From contig NZ_CP104275.1 of NCBI RefSeq assembly GCF_025244925.1, positions 2,046,001 to 2,110,000 of the forward strand: a stretch of DNA of 64,000 nt. The letters run 5' to 3'. Positions 23,998 to 48,295 of the stretch are shown here, piece by piece. The notes under the pieces were generated by a model. That model worked only from the letters and a program-made list of their open reading frames with translations, was not told the DNA's origin and searched no databases. Numbering within the stretch: position 1 is the first letter of the stretch; each line of letters opens with the position of its first letter. Made by a program: the position numbers and the translations under genes. This DNA comes from Arthrobacter zhaoxinii. Lineage in GTDB: Bacteria; Actinomycetota; Actinomycetes; Actinomycetales; Micrococcaceae.

Positions 23998-24642
23998 TTA
24001 GGTCCAGGACCATCCTGCCGCCGGACGGCCGCGGCCCGCGGCGACTGCCTCGCTGGACTTGAACAGGGCCGGGTTCCGGGCCAGCATCCGGCCCAGATTG
24101 GATGAATCGGGTTCGCTGCGGCCCGCGGCGGCAGCGAGACTCCGGATGATCCTGGCCGCCTGCGCGGTGGTGAAGTGCTTTCCCAGCAGTGCCTTCGTCA
24201 GCGGCTGGTCCACCCAGAGGGCATCCAGCACGGTGCCGGTAGTGCGGCGGATGATGGTGTCGTGGTCGAACGGCAGTCCGGAGACCTGCCCCACCGGCGT
24301 GACCTTGGCCCTCGTTTCATCGAGCCGGGCGTCCGGCTGCAGGACGGCGGTGTGGACAATCGAGATGGTCGGCCCGCGCGGATCACGGTCCGGATTGTCG
24401 TACACGCCCGCCGTGCCGATGTGTTCCACCTGGCCCTCCCCTACTCCGGTCTTGGCCGTCAATGCCCGCAGTGCGGCCTCGGCCAGCCGTTCGGAGGGAA
24501 GCAGGAGGACACCGGGGAGCGCCTGGACACCGGCAAACGGTTCGTTGGCCCGCTCCGCGGTCACCACGCACAGCCCCCCGTCCCTTCCGATGAAGGGCAC
24601 GGTATCGATCGAGACGAGGGGCTGCTGCCGTTCAATGCTCAT
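23998..24642 (-). CDS. Nudix-fold protein, degenerate; probable NrtR-like regulator of NAD salvage
   Basis: The 214-residue protein has an N-terminal Nudix fold and a C-terminal winged-helix-like region from about residue 145 (LLGKHFTTAQAARIIRSL and SSNLGRMLARNPAL). The Nudix box is degenerate: GVLLLPSERLAEAALRALTA lacks the REUxEE glutamates, so hydrolysis is unlikely. This is the usual state of NrtR/NdnR repressors, which sense ADP-ribose or NAD. Its ATG overlaps the end of the NAMPT-like gene by four bases. It may bind the palindrome at 27044-27068. Activity is inferred. Confidence 0.75.
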   Translation of the reverse strand: MSIERQQPLVSIDTVPFIGRDGGLCVVTAERANEPFAGVQALPGVLLLPSERLAEAALRALTAKTGVGEGQVEHIGTAGVYDNPDRDPRGPTISIVHTAVLQPDARLDETRAKVTPVGQVSGLPFDHDTIIRRTTGTVLDALWVDQPLTKALLGKHFTTAQAARIIRSLAAAAGRSEPDSSNLGRMLARNPALFKSSEAVAAGRGRPAAGWSWT

Positions 24643-26186
24643 GAGGAAATGTTACCGAGCACTGTCCGCACGTCGGCGAAGGACTGGCGGCGGAGGAACT
24701 CGCCGTTGGCCCAGACCGGCTGCAGCAGGGAGGCTTCTTCCTGCTCGGGGGTGGCCTTCTCGATGAGGGCCAGCTCGCCGTCGTCGTTCCGTGTCACGGC
24801 CAGGCGGCCGGTGGCTGAGCGCTTGGACCCGAAGCCCTTGGCCGTGATCGGATCCTTGAAGACGTTGCGCCCTTCGCCGTTGACCTCGATGTAGGTGACC
24901 TTGACGGCGGAGGAGAACGTGTCCCGGGTGACGTACTGGTAGGTGAACGAGCCGGCGCCCAACACTACGTTCTCGGCTGCGTAGCCCGCCTTCTCCAAAC
25001 GATCGGTGATGTCGGCGGCGCGTTCCGGCGTGATCGAGTCCCCGTACATCACGCGCACTTTGTTCAGGACCTTGTAGCCGGCCTGGTTGCGGGCGGAGCC
25101 GAACTCTGCGTCGAGGATGGCGACGACGCCGAAGAAGGCAGGGTCGTCGGTCATGGCCGGCACCGCGGCTGGAACGACGGCGCCGGGCCGGGTGGAGGTT
25201 CCGCAGACAATGTCGGCGGGATCCCCGGAGTCGGGACGGATGACGACGTTGCCGTCGCGGGACGTGATGATGTCCTTAAGCCCCGGCAGGATGTTCTGCA
25301 GCACGTGCCACAGATCGTAGCCGTCGGAAACCAGCGAGATGTTGCCGCTGGAATTGACCTCCAGGATGTGGCGGAAGGTCTCGGCTTCTCCGTCCTGGCC
25401 GCCGGCGCACATGACCGCATGCTCGCTGGCGGGGATGGAACCGAGGATCTGGCCGTTGTCGGCCCCGAAGGAGGAGTTGTAATAGCGGCGGATGAAGTCC
25501 GCCGAGCCGAGGGAGTCCGATCCCTTGAAGGACAGCAGGTGGCCGGCGCCGGAGGCGGCAGCGGCTTCGACGCCGGGCATTCCGCGGAAGGAGAAGTCGT
25601 GGAGCTGCCAGTCCACGAACGCGGCGTCCGTGCCGGTCTTTTCGGCAGCGGCATCGAGGATGCCGCGGTACTTGTCGGCGATGGTCGCTGCGGTGGAGGG
25701 CTGCCAGATGGACGCGCTCAGCGCCGTCTCGATGTAGTTGACCAGCCAGAAGAACTCCGGTTCGGTGGACTCAACAGTGACGGACGGGACCCGCAGGGGT
25801 ACCCGGGTTCCTTCGGGAACGGCGCGGAAGATCAGCGGCAGGTAGCCGCGGCGGTGCAGGGCCCGGATGTGGCTGGTGCCTACGGTATTGGGGCCGAGGA
25901 TGTCATTGAGGCCGGCCTGGTACTCGGCCACGGCCTCGTCTTCGTCTGCGGCGAAGAACGGAGCGAAGGCCTCGATGCAGAACTTCTGCAGGAAGGCCTG
26001 CAGTCCGAAGTGCACCACGTGGTCCACGCCCTCGAGGCGGGAGCCGCGGTTGGTGAAGTTGGAGAGGACCTTCGTGGTGCCCTGCGGGTACATGTGGATG
26101 TGGCCGAGCTTGTACGCGTCCGTCTGGAAGAGGGCGGCCGTGATGCTGGCAGTGGTCAGTGCGGTGGCGGGTGCTGTTGTGGTCAT
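24639..26186 (-). CDS. nadV: Nicotinamide phosphoribosyltransferase-like (NadV/NAMPT)
   Basis: The 515-residue protein is a full-length NAMPT relative: FQTDAYKLGHIHMYPQGTTK and SNFTNRGSR at the start, HDFSFRGM in the middle, GSIPASEHAVM, the PRPP-binding VIRPDSGDPADI, and VLGAGSFTYQYVTRDTF near the end. It normally makes NMN from nicotinamide and PRPP. It lies 10 bases after a Prs-like gene and overlaps a Nudix-type regulator, forming a salvage operon. Because the Prs-NAMPT pairing also occurs in ADPR-pyrophosphate pathways of phages, the exact donor should be tested. Confidence 0.9.
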   Translation of the reverse strand: MTTTAPATALTTASITAALFQTDAYKLGHIHMYPQGTTKVLSNFTNRGSRLEGVDHVVHFGLQAFLQKFCIEAFAPFFAADEDEAVAEYQAGLNDILGPNTVGTSHIRALHRRGYLPLIFRAVPEGTRVPLRVPSVTVESTEPEFFWLVNYIETALSASIWQPSTAATIADKYRGILDAAAEKTGTDAAFVDWQLHDFSFRGMPGVEAAAASGAGHLLSFKGSDSLGSADFIRRYYNSSFGADNGQILGSIPASEHAVMCAGGQDGEAETFRHILEVNSSGNISLVSDGYDLWHVLQNILPGLKDIITSRDGNVVIRPDSGDPADIVCGTSTRPGAVVPAAVPAMTDDPAFFGVVAILDAEFGSARNQAGYKVLNKVRVMYGDSITPERAADITDRLEKAGYAAENVVLGAGSFTYQYVTRDTFSSAVKVTYIEVNGEGRNVFKDPITAKGFGSKRSATGRLAVTRNDDGELALIEKATPEQEEASLLQPVWANGEFLRRQSFADVRTVLGNISS

Positions 26187-26196
26187 GGCGGCGTCC

Positions 26197-27012
26197 TTAG
26201 ATGAGGTGGGAAATCAGGGGCGTGATGGAAGCGGCAACGTCCGGGTTGGCGGCGCCGGGATGTGAATCGGTGGTGTAGATGGAGCCGTAGGCCTGCCGCA
26301 GCTGGGCCGCCTTGCCGGAGAAGACTCCGTGGCTGACCCACAGGTCCAGGCGGTCCGGCCCGAGTCCGGTGGCGGCGGCCAGGCCCATGAAGGTTCCGCC
26401 GCCGTCGCAGATGTCGTCGACAACCAGGAAGCGGCCTTCGGCGGGCAGCTCCTCGCAGGTGAAGGAGGAGAGCTTGCCGGTGGCAAAGTCGCGGTGCTTC
26501 TCGGCGGAATAGAGCGGAAGTCCGAGCGCTGCGGCGGTTCGGGCGGTGCGTTCCTTCGCTCCGGCGTCCGGGCAGATGACCCCGGCATACTCCCCCGCCT
26601 TGTTCCGCAGGACCTGGGCGATCACGGCGGAGGAATCCACAACGCGCAGGTTGCGCACCAGCGCCGGCATGACGGGCGAGTGCGGATCGAAGCAGACCAC
26701 TTCGTCGGCGTTCATGGCGTTGATGAGGTTGGCGTAGACCTTGGCGCCGAAGGGGTTGCCCCGGTCCTGGCGCGCTCCGGGCAGGTACGGGATGAGGGCC
26801 TGGACCTTATGGCCGCCCTGGTGGGCGTAGTCGATCCACATGGCCGCGCTCATATACTCGTTTGCGTCGGCACCGGTGAGGTAGAGGTAAAGCGGCGTCT
26901 CATTCGGACTGCCGTCGACTTTGAGGTGGGCCTCCCCGGCCGGGAAGGACATCGGCGTAGCGGCCGAATGGACGGTGTATCCCTGCGGGACTGTGGCGTA
27001 TGCGGTGAACAT
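26197..27012 (-). CDS. Short ribose-phosphate pyrophosphokinase-like protein (Prs family)
   Basis: The 271-residue protein is about 45 residues shorter than housekeeping Prs. The conserved IPYLPGARQDRGNPFGAKVYAN segment holds the RQDR element, FDPHSPVMPAL replaces the usual DLHAGQ, and VVDDICDGGGTFMGLA is the PRPP loop. It transfers pyrophosphate from ATP to a ribose 5-phosphate or a related acceptor. It heads the operon with the NAMPT-like gene, so its product is likely the co-substrate for that enzyme. The ATG is 32 bases from a perfect inverted repeat. Confidence 0.88.
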   Translation of the reverse strand: MFTAYATVPQGYTVHSAATPMSFPAGEAHLKVDGSPNETPLYLYLTGADANEYMSAAMWIDYAHQGGHKVQALIPYLPGARQDRGNPFGAKVYANLINAMNADEVVCFDPHSPVMPALVRNLRVVDSSAVIAQVLRNKAGEYAGVICPDAGAKERTARTAAALGLPLYSAEKHRDFATGKLSSFTCEELPAEGRFLVVDDICDGGGTFMGLAAATGLGPDRLDLWVSHGVFSGKAAQLRQAYGSIYTTDSHPGAANPDVAASITPLISHLI

Positions 27013-27043
27013 GCTGCCAGCCTACACAAGTTTTTCGTCAATG

Positions 27044-27068
27044 GAAGTTTATTTCCTGAATAAACTTC
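27044..27068. promoter_or_regulatory. Inverted repeat, candidate operator of the NAD salvage operon
   Basis: GAAGTTTATT at 27044-27053 and AATAAACTTC at 27059-27068 are perfect inverted arms of 10 bases around TCCTG. The site is AT-rich in a high-GC setting and lies 32 bases upstream of the prs-like ATG, where a repressor would block transcription. The Nudix-type regulator of the same operon is the natural candidate to bind it. Confidence 0.65.
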
Positions 27069-27096
27069 ATATTACGACTAATGACAGGGCGGCGGG

Positions 27097-42333: not shown

Positions 42334-43077
42334 TCAGCTCTCCGCGGCGGGGCGGATCATCGGGGGGCTGAGATACTCGTCCCGAACGGTGAACACTGCG
42401 GCCGGGGCGCCCTTGCCACGGGCAACCTTGCGCCCGGTGTCATGCAGCGCGCCGGTCATCTTGCGGGTGAAGTTGCCGGCGTCGAGCTTGTCGGTGTTCC
42501 ACACGGCCTGGTAGACCCGGCGCAGCTGGTAGAGGGCGAACTCCCCGGGCAGGAGCCGCGCGGCGGCCAGGGTGTATTCGATTTTGCCGGCGAGGCGTTC
42601 AAGAGCGGCGGTGAGAATCTCGCGGTGGTCGAAGGCCAGCGTCTCCTGGGCGAGGACTTCGTACACGGGCAGCCATTGGGCTGCCGCACTGTCGGTGCCG
42701 GGATCGAGTGCGGGCAGGGTGCGGCCGTCCGTGGCGAGCAGCGCAAGGTGGGCGACGGAAACGACGCGCATGCGCGGGTCCCGTTTCGGGGAACTGTAGG
42801 TGGCGAGCTGCTCGACGTGGGCGCGGTGTGCCCCGAGGTCCAGTCCCGTCTCCTCCTCCAGCTCGCGCCAGGCGGCTGTAAGGGCGTCCTCATTCGGTCC
42901 GACGAACCCGCCCGGCAGCGCCAGGGACCCCTTGAAGGGATGTCCTCCGCGGCGGACGAAGGCTGCCTGGAGAGTGCTTCCGGTGACGGCGAAGACCACC
43001 AGATCCACGGTCAGCGCCACGGAGGGATACTCCCTGGGCGCGTAGTCCTGGAGGAACTGCTGTTCTTCGCCGGCCAT
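42334..43077 (-). CDS. Nudix hydrolase with C-terminal winged helix (NrtR family)
   Basis: The 247-residue protein has an intact Nudix box at residues 57-79, GFVGPNEDALTAAWRELEEE then TGL, that fits Gx5Ex7REUxEExGU. It follows the CoA/ADP-ribose-type ALPGG start. The C-terminal 90 residues (GEFALYQLRRVYQAVWN, NFTRKM) look like the NrtR winged helix. It may hydrolyse ADP-ribose, regulate NAD genes or do both. It overlaps the NadR stop by one base (TGATG), so it is the last gene of pnuC-nadR-nudix. Confidence 0.82.
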   Translation of the reverse strand: MAGEEQQFLQDYAPREYPSVALTVDLVVFAVTGSTLQAAFVRRGGHPFKGSLALPGGFVGPNEDALTAAWRELEEETGLDLGAHRAHVEQLATYSSPKRDPRMRVVSVAHLALLATDGRTLPALDPGTDSAAAQWLPVYEVLAQETLAFDHREILTAALERLAGKIEYTLAAARLLPGEFALYQLRRVYQAVWNTDKLDAGNFTRKMTGALHDTGRKVARGKGAPAAVFTVRDEYLSPPMIRPAAES

Positions 43078-44183
43078 CAGGCTCCTGTCAGCACCGTCCG
43101 TGTGGCCCAGGGCGGGGACGTGAAGCTGTTGCGCTGGGCGATGATGAGGTCGATTATTCCAGTTGCAGTGGCAATCCGCTCCTCCGGACTGCCGGTAACC
43201 AGTATCCAGGAGGAGCCGGCGGCCGTGAGCTCCTCCTTGAACCACTCGGTCATTTCGGCGCGGGGGTGCCCGGCATCGCGCCAGCCGTCGTCCTCGAAGG
43301 CGACGCCGTCGTGGTCGGTAATGAGGTACAGGTCGCGGTGCGGCAGCCGGCTGACGGCGAGATAGGAGCCGTAGCTTTTCTCACCGATGTAGACACGTTC
43401 GAAGAGGGAGGTGGTGATGACATCCGTATCGGCAATCACCAGGGGGCACCGTGCCGCTGCCTCGTTCTCCATCTGGTTCTGGCGTTCTCCGATGACCGCG
43501 AAATCCTCGGCCGTCCAGACCATGTCGGAGAGGACGGCGTCGGGCTTCTCCGCCTGCAGCGCCGCGAACTTGTCGTAAGTGAACTGGCGGCCGAATTCCG
43601 GAACATCCGCCAGTTCGGGATAGCGCTTCCGGTAGTGCGTGGTCAGAGCCTGGGCGAGGGTGGTGGCGCCGGTGGATTCGGCACCGACGACGATGATCCG
43701 GACGGCCATGTCCTGGCGGGCGGGCTTGAGGATGTTCCGCCAGGCCGCGCCGAGGTCGTCGCGGCAAAGGGTGCCGCTGACCGGGTACGAGCTCCGGGCC
43801 TTGTCCACCATGACATGTTCGGCGCCGAAATCCCCCGCCAGGGTTGCACCGTACTCCTCGGAGCTGAAGACGGCGTCGACGGCCGTGATGCCTTTGCTTT
43901 TGAGGGCAAGGCGCAGGAGCTCATTGTGCGCCTTCCAAATGGCCCGGGAGGTGTAGTCCACGGGACAGTCGTCCGGCATTCCGATGACGGTGACGTTGGT
44001 GTCCTCGAACTCCGCGGCGAGCCATTTCACGCGGTCGGCAAGGCCGATGTCCTCGAACCGGGTGCCGAGGACCACCACGGCCAGCCTGGCGGACTGCTTC
44101 GACGCCGTGGCGATGAGGTGGCGGTGTCCGGTGTGCGGCGGATAGAACTTGCCGATGACCAGGCCTTGCGCGAAGAGGCTCAT
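43077..44183 (-). CDS. nadR: NadR-like NMN adenylyltransferase/ribosylnicotinamide kinase
   Basis: The 368-residue protein lacks the N-terminal HTH of E. coli NadR. The adenylyltransferase site is GKFYPPHTGHRHLI, with H17 and H20. The kinase half begins at about residue 160 with IIVVGAESTGATTLAQAL: the Walker A lysine is Ala in GAESTGATT, where enterobacterial-type members have GKS. The middle holds VPEFGRQFTYDKF. It would adenylylate NMN and phosphorylate nicotinamide riboside imported by PnuC. The kinase step may be weakened, or another residue replaces the Lys. ATGA overlap with pnuC. Confidence 0.88.
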   Translation of the reverse strand: MSLFAQGLVIGKFYPPHTGHRHLIATASKQSARLAVVVLGTRFEDIGLADRVKWLAAEFEDTNVTVIGMPDDCPVDYTSRAIWKAHNELLRLALKSKGITAVDAVFSSEEYGATLAGDFGAEHVMVDKARSSYPVSGTLCRDDLGAAWRNILKPARQDMAVRIIVVGAESTGATTLAQALTTHYRKRYPELADVPEFGRQFTYDKFAALQAEKPDAVLSDMVWTAEDFAVIGERQNQMENEAAARCPLVIADTDVITTSLFERVYIGEKSYGSYLAVSRLPHRDLYLITDHDGVAFEDDGWRDAGHPRAEMTEWFKEELTAAGSSWILVTGSPEERIATATGIIDLIIAQRNSFTSPPWATRTVLTGA

Positions 44184-44830
44184 ACCGGAACGGCGGCGGG
44201 GCGGGCGGCTGCGGTGCGGGTGCGCTTCCAGTCGATCAGTCCGTAGACGCAGAGGGCGGTGAAGCCGATATACAGGAGGGCAGTGAGGTTGAGGCCGCGG
44301 GAGAAGTAGAGCGGGACGCTCACGAGGTCGATGGCGATCCAGACGTACCAGTGCTGGAAAATCTTCTTGGCCTGTCCGTAGGTGGCCAGGAGCGAGGCAG
44401 CCAGGACAAAGGCATCGGGCCAGGGGACCTCGGAGTCGGTTCCGTGGGTGAGGATCATCGCGATCCCCGCGGTGGCCAGGACGACGGCGGCGATTCCGCC
44501 GATGATTTCGTTCCGACCGGCGTCGCGGATGGGCAGGTCGCTTTTCTGCTCCGTGTCCTTCGCTCCCCGGACCCAGTTGTACCAGCCGTAGACGGCGACG
44601 GCGGCGAACACTGCCTGCAGGACGGTCTCCCCGTAGAGGCCGGCCCCGAAGAACAGGATCATGAACGCAATGTTGTTGATAATGCCGACGGGCCAGTTCC
44701 AGGCCTGCTGCCGGGCCACGCCGTAGACGCAGGCTGCGCCGGTGACGAATCCGATGACTTCGATCCAGCTGACCGGTGCTCCGAGCAGGTGTGCCGCCGG
44801 GGAGTTCATCCAGTCCAGTACTGCGTTCAT
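44180..44830 (-). CDS. pnuC: Nicotinamide mononucleotide/riboside transporter PnuC
   Basis: The 216-residue protein is a PnuC-family facilitator with about seven helices. Signature stretches are FVTGAACVYGVARQQAWNWPVG, VYGWYNWVRG, and WYVWIAIDLVSVPLYFSRGL. It brings nicotinamide riboside into the cell for the following NadR. The ATG at 44830 follows AGGAG. A 17-bp palindrome lies 17 bases upstream. It heads the operon pnuC-nadR-nudix. Confidence 0.92.
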   Translation of the reverse strand: MNAVLDWMNSPAAHLLGAPVSWIEVIGFVTGAACVYGVARQQAWNWPVGIINNIAFMILFFGAGLYGETVLQAVFAAVAVYGWYNWVRGAKDTEQKSDLPIRDAGRNEIIGGIAAVVLATAGIAMILTHGTDSEVPWPDAFVLAASLLATYGQAKKIFQHWYVWIAIDLVSVPLYFSRGLNLTALLYIGFTALCVYGLIDWKRTRTAAARPAAVPV

Positions 44831-44846
44831 GTCGCTCTCCTGATTT

Positions 44847-44863
44847 ATTGTCAATGTGACAAT
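44847..44863. promoter_or_regulatory. 17-bp palindrome upstream of pnuC, candidate operator
   Basis: ATTGTCA at 44847-44853 and TGACAAT at 44857-44863 are perfect inverted arms around ATG. The site is at the pnuC promoter region. The Nudix/NrtR protein of this operon, or the one at 23998-24642, could bind it; its sequence differs from the palindrome at 27044-27068. Confidence 0.6.
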
Positions 44864-44935
44864 TTGTAGCCTAGGGCTGTGACGGAGATAACGGAAGGGC
44901 TGGCCGGGACGAGTAGTGAGAGGTGCATCACATGC

Positions 44936-44993
44936 TGTTGCCCTCACTGGGGCAACAAAAAACCGCCGGACACGTTTTCACGCGTCCGGCGGT
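44936..44993. terminator. Two adjacent hairpins, terminator of the tRNA-Ala transcript
   Basis: On the minus strand, ACCGCCGGAC pairs with GTCCGGCGGT (44962-44993) and is followed by TTTTTT, a standard terminator after the tRNA genes. A second perfect 8-bp hairpin, TGTTGCCC/GGGCAACA, is at 44936-44957. Confidence 0.8.
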
Positions 44994-44998
44994 CTTGT

Positions 44999-45074
44999 TG
45001 GTGGAGCTGAGGGGACTCGAACCCCTGACCCCCTGCATGCCATGCAGGTGCGCTACCAGCTGCGCCACAGCCCC
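44999..45074 (-). tRNA. tRNA-Ala (anticodon GGC)
   Basis: The 76-nt gene folds into a standard cloverleaf read on the minus strand. The acceptor stem GGGGCTG pairs with CAGCTCC and includes G3:U70, the alanine identity element. The anticodon stem CCTGC/GCAGG encloses ATGGCAT, so the anticodon is GGC. The T arm is AGGGG-TTCGAGT-CCCCT, and the 3' CCA is encoded. It is identical to the copy at 45124-45199. Confidence 0.96.
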
Positions 45075-45123
45075 GAACTTTCAGTGGTTTTCCACCGCAA
45101 ACCCTCCGGTCTCCCGAAGGTTT

Positions 45124-45199
45124 TGGTGGAGCTGAGGGGACTCGAACCCCTGACCCCCTGCATGCCATGCAGGTGCGCTACCAGCTGCGCCACAGCCCC
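45124..45199 (-). tRNA. tRNA-Ala (anticodon GGC), second identical copy
   Basis: This copy matches 44999-45074 base for base over 76 nt, including the encoded CCA. It is the upstream copy in transcription order; 49 bases separate the two, with no promoter that I see, so they are probably one precursor cut by RNase P and RNase E/Z. The G3:U70 pair and GGC anticodon define alanine. Confidence 0.96.
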
Positions 45200-47629: not shown

Positions 47630-48295
47630 TTACGCTACTGGTTCTGTTTCGGTTTCCGCGGAGCTCTCGGCCTGCCGTCCGGCGGCATACAGACGGTGCT
47701 TCGCAATGTACTGCACCACTCCGTCCGGTACGAGGTACCAGACCGGCTTGCCCCCTGCCACGCGGCGCCGGCAGTCGGTGGAGGAGATCGCCATGGCCGG
47801 CACCTCCATCAGGGAGACGTCGTCGCGGCCCACGTTTTCCAGCACATGCCCGGGCCGTGTCACTCCCACGAAGTGGGCCAGCGACCACAGTTCCTGGATG
47901 TCCTTCCAGGACAGGATCTGCGCCATCGCGTCCGCACCGGTGATGAAGTACAGCTCGGCCTCGGGGCGCGCTGCCTTCAGGTCCCGCAGGGTGTCGATGG
48001 TGTACGTGGGGCCGGGCCGGTCAATGTCGACACGGCTCACCGTGAAGCGGGGGTTCGATGCAGTGGCGATGACCGTCATGAGGTACCGGTGTTCCGCCGG
48101 GCTCACCTGCTGGGCGGCCGGCTTGTGCCACGGATCGCCGGTGGGTACAAAGACAACCTCGTCCAGATCGAACGTGGACGCCACTTCGCTTGCGGCCACC
48201 AGGTGGCCGTGATGAATCGGGTCGAACGTTCCGCCCATGACTCCCAGCCGGAACCTGCGTTTTCCGTTGCTGTCTGTCCGCTGCGGTTCACCCAT
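47630..48295 (-). CDS. nadD: Nicotinate-nucleotide adenylyltransferase NadD
   Basis: The 221-residue protein makes nicotinate adenine dinucleotide from NaMN and ATP. The nucleotide-binding motif is [18 protein letters not shown] and the second motif [12 protein letters not shown] is intact (ISSTxxR). The ATG at 48295 follows GGAGG by about 11 bases; a GTG at 48322 also fits, so the start is uncertain. It is the housekeeping route to NAD, next to rsfS and obg as in other actinobacteria. Confidence 0.93.

Follow-up and report, generated by a model that had tools for sequence, protein, structure and literature searches.

Which pathway is encoded when a relative of phosphoribosyl pyrophosphate (PRPP) synthetase (Prs) is followed directly by a relative of nicotinamide phosphoribosyltransferase (NAMPT) and by a Nudix-type regulator, and whom does such a gene set serve? 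This question is raised by a stretch of 64,000 nucleotides from Arthrobacter zhaoxinii (contig NZ_CP104275.1, positions 2,046,001 to 2,110,000), which was analyzed at its full length and is referred to here as the window. The original prediction had recognized a 271-residue Prs relative, a NAMPT relative and a Nudix regulator; the three open reading frames and their families were confirmed, with the regulator gene lying outside the interval originally given (24639..27012). Judged by its sequence, the operon is a chromosomal NARP1, i.e., a bacterial pair of an ADP-ribose (ADPR) pyrophosphokinase (Adps) and a nicotinamide ADP-ribose transferase (Namat), equipped with a regulator of its own. It is likely that it acts as a host NAD+ repair operon, in which Adps and Namat would rebuild NAD+ from ADPR and which the substrate ADPR would induce by way of an NrtR-type repressor.

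The three consecutive minus-strand genes form one operon: the Prs-like gene lies directly upstream of the NAMPT-like gene with a gap of 10 bp, and the regulator gene overlaps the stop of the NAMPT-like gene by 4 bp (Table 1). The Prs-like protein scored 88.8 bits with TIGR01251, below the cut-off of 113, and 241.6 bits with phrog_619; the NAMPT-like protein scored 511.5 bits with NF006629 and 586.6 bits with phrog_448, and the Nudix protein 26.7 bits with PF00293. Chance or mis-annotation was ruled out by the open reading frames, the family and structure matches and the recurrence across the genus.

The top PDB matches of the NAMPT-like protein were 9w5w/9w5x, the Namat of phage SPbetaL1 with NAD+ and nicotinamide (406 bits); human NAMPT scored about 231 bits. 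Identity was 57.0% to the Namat of phage DyoEdafos and 45.2% to that of SPbetaL1. The main text of PMC12774641 describes an adenine clamp made of the loop residue Arg40 (SCL) and the helix motif GSX-Phi-X-Phi-X-Phi-TRD (SCH); a double clamp mutant lost most use of ADPR pyrophosphate (ADPR-PP) but kept synthesis of nicotinamide mononucleotide (NMN), and the SCL loop was found to be variable. Both clamp elements were located in the window protein (Table 1), and 19 of the 20 NAD+ contacts of SPbetaL1 Namat given in that text, clamp included, were identical in the alignment of Namat-like proteins. The GGG-type SCH sequence typical of NAMPT/NadV was not found in the window protein, which has GSF..Y..TRD. 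Four NAMPTs served as controls, those of VCPH and Ccr34, with an NMN adenylyltransferase gene present, and two without an annotated Prs-like gene nearby. S391, F392 and Y396 were lacking in all four and none had the SCH motif; some clamp positions were common to controls, namely Arg40 in Ccr34, T398 in Roth27, and R399 and D400 in all four.

The clamp was then followed through a survey of the best 80 of 111 bacterial matches and the best 80 of 364 viral contigs, with flanks of 6 kb and 4 kb, respectively (some contigs were shorter), and with Firmicute NARP1 outside its range. With His allowed at position 7, the SCH motif was shared by 81 of the 85 sequences from bacteria and plasmids, by 69 of the 88 viral sequences and by none of the four controls; 11 of the 19 viral misses had Met at position 7 and two were truncated sequences. 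The SCL position was Arg in 48 and Ala in 26 of the 85 sequences of the bacterial set, and Arg in 85 of the 88 viral ones. By these features, the NAMPT-like protein is a predicted Namat.

For the Prs-like protein, a tree was calculated from 54 Adps rows picked by hand out of 174 and 17 of the 18 fetched Prs loci (L020 was left out), the Prs rows coming from the window's order only. The window protein grouped with the assayed phage Adps, and a 100/100 split separated the 54 Adps from the 17 housekeeping Prs; phage and bacterial Adps were intermixed. A position inside the housekeeping clade, named in the original prediction as the outcome that would speak against the ADPR route, was ruled out by this split. 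A separate housekeeping Prs is encoded elsewhere in the genome (27% identity to the Prs-like protein), and SPbetaL1 Adps is 26.1% identical to the window Adps.

The FDPHS loop had been taken as a hint that the acceptor is not plain ribose 5-phosphate. In the alignment, the window protein has DPHS where all 17 housekeeping Prs have DLH[TA], and [DE]PHS is the usual Adps form (IEPHS in SPbetaL1 and VDPHS in DyoEdafos, both assayed). The hint is nevertheless weak: some Adps have other letters at this position, and FDPHS was rejected as proof of ADPR use because the Sulfolobus Prs 4twb has EPHK at the loop. Stronger evidence is the adenine clamp of the NAMPT-like protein together with the DDICDGGGTF loop, both of which point to, rather than prove, ADPR as the substrate. 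DTGGT, the ribose-5-phosphate loop, was found in 17 of 17 housekeeping Prs and in none of the 53 listed Adps rows (of 54), with DGGGT in the window protein; neither of the two housekeeping signatures, DTGGT or DLH[TA], was thus present in it. The retained clamp, the placement among Adps and the DDICDGGGTF loop argue for the ADPR route over the PRPP route, and the earlier statement that sequence alone cannot choose between the two is now too cautious because the adenine clamp is a published sequence signature (PMC12774641, main text).

The most informative part of the locus is the regulator. Its predicted fold combines a Nudix domain with a C-terminal winged helix, and the Nudix catalytic glutamates are lost (RALTAK in place of REUxEE), the Nudix box being degenerate in 70 of 72 NARP1-linked regulators. 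It is called NrtR-type because the curated model NF050029 was not reached (33.8 bits; cut-off 400); this equivalog model is narrow and was also missed by the paralogue encoded in the window (129.3 vs. 400). A hidden Markov model (HMM) derived from 64 seeds detected an NrtR-type gene no more than 3 kb from Adps or Namat at 70 of the 80 bacterial loci (best 80 of 111) and at all five plasmid loci, but near only two of the 80 viral contigs (best 80 of 364) and none of the eight named phage records. The link extended over 20 named genera, two unclassified groups and four gene arrangements. The ten bacterial loci without NrtR comprised four among phage genes, one at a contig edge (L060) and five from Nocardia. 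The four (L068, L097, L100 and L103) have neighbors of phage families (tail, primase, helicase), and the latter three pair with phage Adps in the tree. The viral matches were L124 and L125, the neighbors of L125 belonging to phage families of unknown function. Several points weigh against this linkage: Curtobacterium contributed 28 of the 80 bacterial loci, the HMM was trained on the very loci scored, L113 and L114 were weak NrtR matches, and a phylogeny-corrected sign test was weak (7 pairs, 3.6 vs. 0, median p 0.125).

Upstream of the operon, two tandem 24-bp operator-like sites were found (Table 1). A single perfect palindrome had been considered as the operator and was replaced by these sites on comparison with relatives. 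The proximal site directly precedes the -10-like TAGGCT, a placement expected for repression, and the position of this hexamer makes a leaderless transcript likely. The core GTTTATTN5AATAAAC occurred at one place in the genome (3.47 Mb, single contig), with none other at up to two mismatches; the backward control occurred at four places per strand. At 21 of 22 Micrococcaceae loci (17/17 first scored and 4/5 further distinct ones), a 24-bp site built as AATAAACATCA-N2-TGATGTTTATT was present 15–17 bp before the start codon. The exception is L084 (Galactobacter caseinivorans), where the genes are reordered as Namat - NrtR - Adps and the best site (13/22) lies 41 bp away. Proximal scores ranged from 13 to 22 of 22, with a shuffle p of 0.07 for the weakest (L045), p values for these sites being optimistic because the consensus was drawn from some of the same loci. 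The best score among 15 phage upstream stretches, several of which end at the match start rather than the start codon, was 12. In the window and in L003, L005, L006 and L044-L048, weaker proximal copies (13–14/22) were joined by another site 29 bp farther upstream (14–16/22). AT-rich upstream palindromes scoring at least 9 were seen at 24 of 74 NrtR-bearing loci (0.4% of shuffles), at three of the ten bacterial loci that lack NrtR (L060 plus two from Nocardia) and at 1 of 85 viral loci, some gene starts being approximate. The 74 loci are 69 of the 70 above (the upstream stretch of L101 was too short) and the five plasmid loci, of which L041 duplicates the record of L090.

Table 1. Features of the NARP1 operon, its upstream region and nearby NAD genes (positions of the window).
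Feature	Position	Strand	Remark
Adps-like gene (predicted Prs-fold ADP-ribose pyrophosphokinase)	26197..27012	-	271 aa
Namat-like gene (predicted NAMPT-fold nicotinamide ADP-ribose transferase)	24639..26186	-	515 aa
NrtR-type Nudix + winged-helix regulator gene	23998..24642	-	214 aa
FDPHS loop of Adps-like protein, residues 108-112	26677..26691	-	usual Adps form
DDICDGGGTF loop of Adps-like protein, residues 199-208	26389..26418	-	replaces DDMIDTGGTI of Prs (alignment)
SCH clamp motif GSFTYQYVTRD, residues 412-422	24921..24953	-	fits GSX-Phi-X-Phi-X-Phi-TRD signature (PMC12774641, main text)
SCL clamp arginine, residue 50	26037..26039	-	Arg40 of SPbetaL1 Namat (alignment)
Proximal operator-like site AATAAACTTCC-AT-TGACGAAAAAC	27030..27053	-	17 bp before start codon; 14/22 to consensus
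Distal operator-like site ATTAGTCGTAA-TA-TGAAGTTTATT	27059..27082	-	16/22 to footprint consensus
Perfect palindrome GAAGTTTATT-cagga-AATAAACTTC	27044..27068	-	made by inner half-sites
TAGGCT, -10-like hexamer	27019..27024	-	6 nt before ATG; same hexamer in L044-L048
PnuC gene	44180-44947	-	second NAD operon (42334-44947), about 15 kb from NARP1 operon
NadR-like NMN adenylyltransferase gene	43077-44183	-	128.6 bits, below cut-off of 341
NrtR paralogue gene, intact Nudix box	42334-43245	-	second NAD operon
NadD gene	47687-48241		185.4 bits, above cut-off

The following mechanism is proposed. First, Adps would move pyrophosphate from ATP to ADPR, yielding ADPR-PP. Second, Namat would join ADPR-PP and nicotinamide and release NAD+ in one step; both products of NAD+ cleavage would therefore be recycled. 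Third, the NrtR-type repressor would bind the operon promoter at one or two palindromes of 24 bp. Upon cleavage of NAD+, ADPR would rise, the repressor would be released and the ADPR-consuming enzymes would be switched on, until consumption of ADPR restored repression. We infer the conversion of ADPR via ADPR-PP to NAD+ from homology, and repression by the third protein with induction by ADPR is less certain than this chemistry. ADPR is a known ligand of NrtR relatives and may, by analogy, be that of the window regulator. There is a smaller, real chance that the NARP1 chemistry is right and that the regulator senses NAD+, a sugar (as AraR) or ATP (as NadQ), or regulates only itself.

Ordinary NAD salvage, in which PRPP would be made from ribose 5-phosphate, NMN from PRPP and nicotinamide, and NMN would be adenylated by NadR, with NrtR in control as for other NAD genes, appears improbable. 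The window does encode a NadR-like protein and NadD, Namat retains PRPP activity in vitro (PMC12774641, main text), and NCBIfam gives the Prs-like protein a sub-threshold label as ribose-phosphate diphosphokinase. However, the genome already has its housekeeping Prs, the Prs-like protein has another loop in place of DTGGT and is placed with Adps in the tree, and the residues serving adenine are kept in the NAMPT-like protein. Since NadR-like and NadD genes are present, the cell can probably finish NMN without the NARP1 operon. The latter would be a recycling route for NAD+ cleavage, with a side flow through NMN being likely. Two tandem tRNA-Ala (GGC) genes (44999-45199, minus strand) lie just upstream of the PnuC open reading frame.

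Within the genus, 12 of 28 genomes, its own among them, carry the Prs-like gene (E ≤ 5e-71), genome G013 as two pieces, and the best match outside the genus (6e-14; 31 genomes searched) was at the level of housekeeping Prs. Of 297 genomes sampled from the order, two had the operon, one of them being its own, and it also occurred on Arthrobacter megaplasmids; its horizontal movement is likely. Its four scanned neighbors encode an ABC-2 membrane protein, a LysR regulator, an EamA transporter and one protein without family assignment. A phage counter-defense pair left by a prophage and without a host role would fit this patchiness, the megaplasmid copies and the intermixing of Adps in the tree, but is very improbable, given that the family scan saw no phage family among the four neighbors, that different genera retain both the regulator and the operator-like site and that the four bacterial loci among phage genes are without the regulator.

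Some loci of the survey deserve separate mention. Among the 80 best bacterial loci (of 111), the one from Arthrobacter zhaoxinii has a protein 98% identical to the Prs-like protein. Arthrobacter genome G015 has two Adps copies (contigs C1 and C2; 96% and 83% identical to window Adps), the second of which shares its start coordinate with the copy on the Arthrobacter sp. zg-Y1110 plasmid. Adps is split into two reading-frame pieces in Arthrobacter sp. ATA002 (L099), and Namat likewise in a Frondihabitans plasmid (L041/L090) and in Nocardia acididurans (L107). Curtobacterium plasmids L042, L043 and L092 show the order Adps - TerD-like - Namat - NADAR - Nudix regulator, with a TnpB gene preceding the regulator in L042. 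A contig of Mycobacterium sp. D16Q14 (L122) has the order Adps - RyDEP-like - Namat - NrtR-type gene and combines a phage cyclic ADPR (cADPR) glycosidase with a host-type regulator. For the Citrobacter locus L118, no match was found in E. coli genomes (distant search) or in plasmids (near search). In the five Nocardia loci (L105-L109), NARP1 occurs without a nearby NrtR; TTTTGGT/TTTTAGT-type palindromes stand upstream in four of the five, the upstream palindromes of the five loci score 7.5–13, three of the five have a histidine phosphatase gene nearby, and an ADP-ribosylglycohydrolase gene adjoins NARP1 in L106. It is possible that the Nocardia NARP1 regulator is encoded elsewhere. In the A. 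zhaoxinii genome itself, TIR_2 had no match and SIR2 one match, and PADLOC gave no match for any of the three operon proteins.

The window operon shares with the phage NARP1 of SPbetaL1 and DyoEdafos, whose pairs were both assayed (PMC12774641 and PMC13232231), the two genes, their order, the clamp residues and the Adps loops, except that DyoEdafos Namat has His in place of Tyr396. Phage NARP1 differs by the rarity of a nearby NrtR, and DyoEdafos carries RyDEP between the Adps and Namat genes, where the window operon has its short gap. Paenibacillus foliorum NARP1, likened here by its description, is likewise a chromosomal Adps-Namat pair, itself reported to be active on ADPR, and the main text of PMC12774641 mentions no regulator for it, NrtR and Nudix occurring there 0 times. 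The NrtR proteins of Shewanella (3gz5/3gz6/3gz8) and M. smegmatis likewise combine Nudix domain and winged helix and have a palindromic site, to which the operator-like sites of the window would correspond, and the Nudix box of the latter is degenerate as in the window regulator. The window regulator is 24% identical to the Shewanella protein SoNrtR (structural alignment); it sits with Adps-Namat and not with nadABC or pnuC-nadR. The phage pathway of NadV and NMN adenylyltransferase (Vibrio phage VCPH, Caulobacter phage Ccr34) also rebuilds NAD+ with a NAMPT fold, but its partner is NMN adenylyltransferase, with no Prs-like gene annotated nearby and no clamp motif. ADP-ribosylglycohydrolase systems have Nudix or WYL regulators, including a Nudix-HTH repressor predicted to sense ADPR that belongs to an ADPR-handling operon; they strip ADPR from macromolecules, and neither Adps nor Namat is named in section 3.8 of PMC9503650.

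Bacterial NARP1 with activity is already known from P. foliorum, and its physiological role was said to need further investigation (PMC12774641, main text). No literature linking NARP1 with NrtR or Nudix, or describing the gene trio, was found in the library searched, and older NrtR literature may hold the gene link without the ADPR chemistry. The 2008 abstract of Rodionov et al. reportedly states that some NrtR were recruited for PRPP biogenesis, which may be the present prs-nadV link by an older name.

The chances appear evenly balanced that host NARP1 is a distinct, domesticated feed-forward circuit, in which ADPR serves as the substrate and also, via a catalytically inactive NrtR-type sensor, as the inducer, and in which the regulator marks NARP1 serving the cell as opposed to phage counter-defense. 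The regulator would then be a simple genomic marker separating host from phage versions, and host NARP1 may be used, for example, in surviving the cell's own NADases, the NADases of rivals or ADP-ribosylating toxins. An ADPR-type sensor beside the enzymes suggests a testable role, with the operon staying off as long as NAD+ is intact. In that case, bacteria would have an antidote of their own, inducible upon the NAD+ depletion that many anti-phage systems use, and phages would carry copies of NARP1 without that switch.

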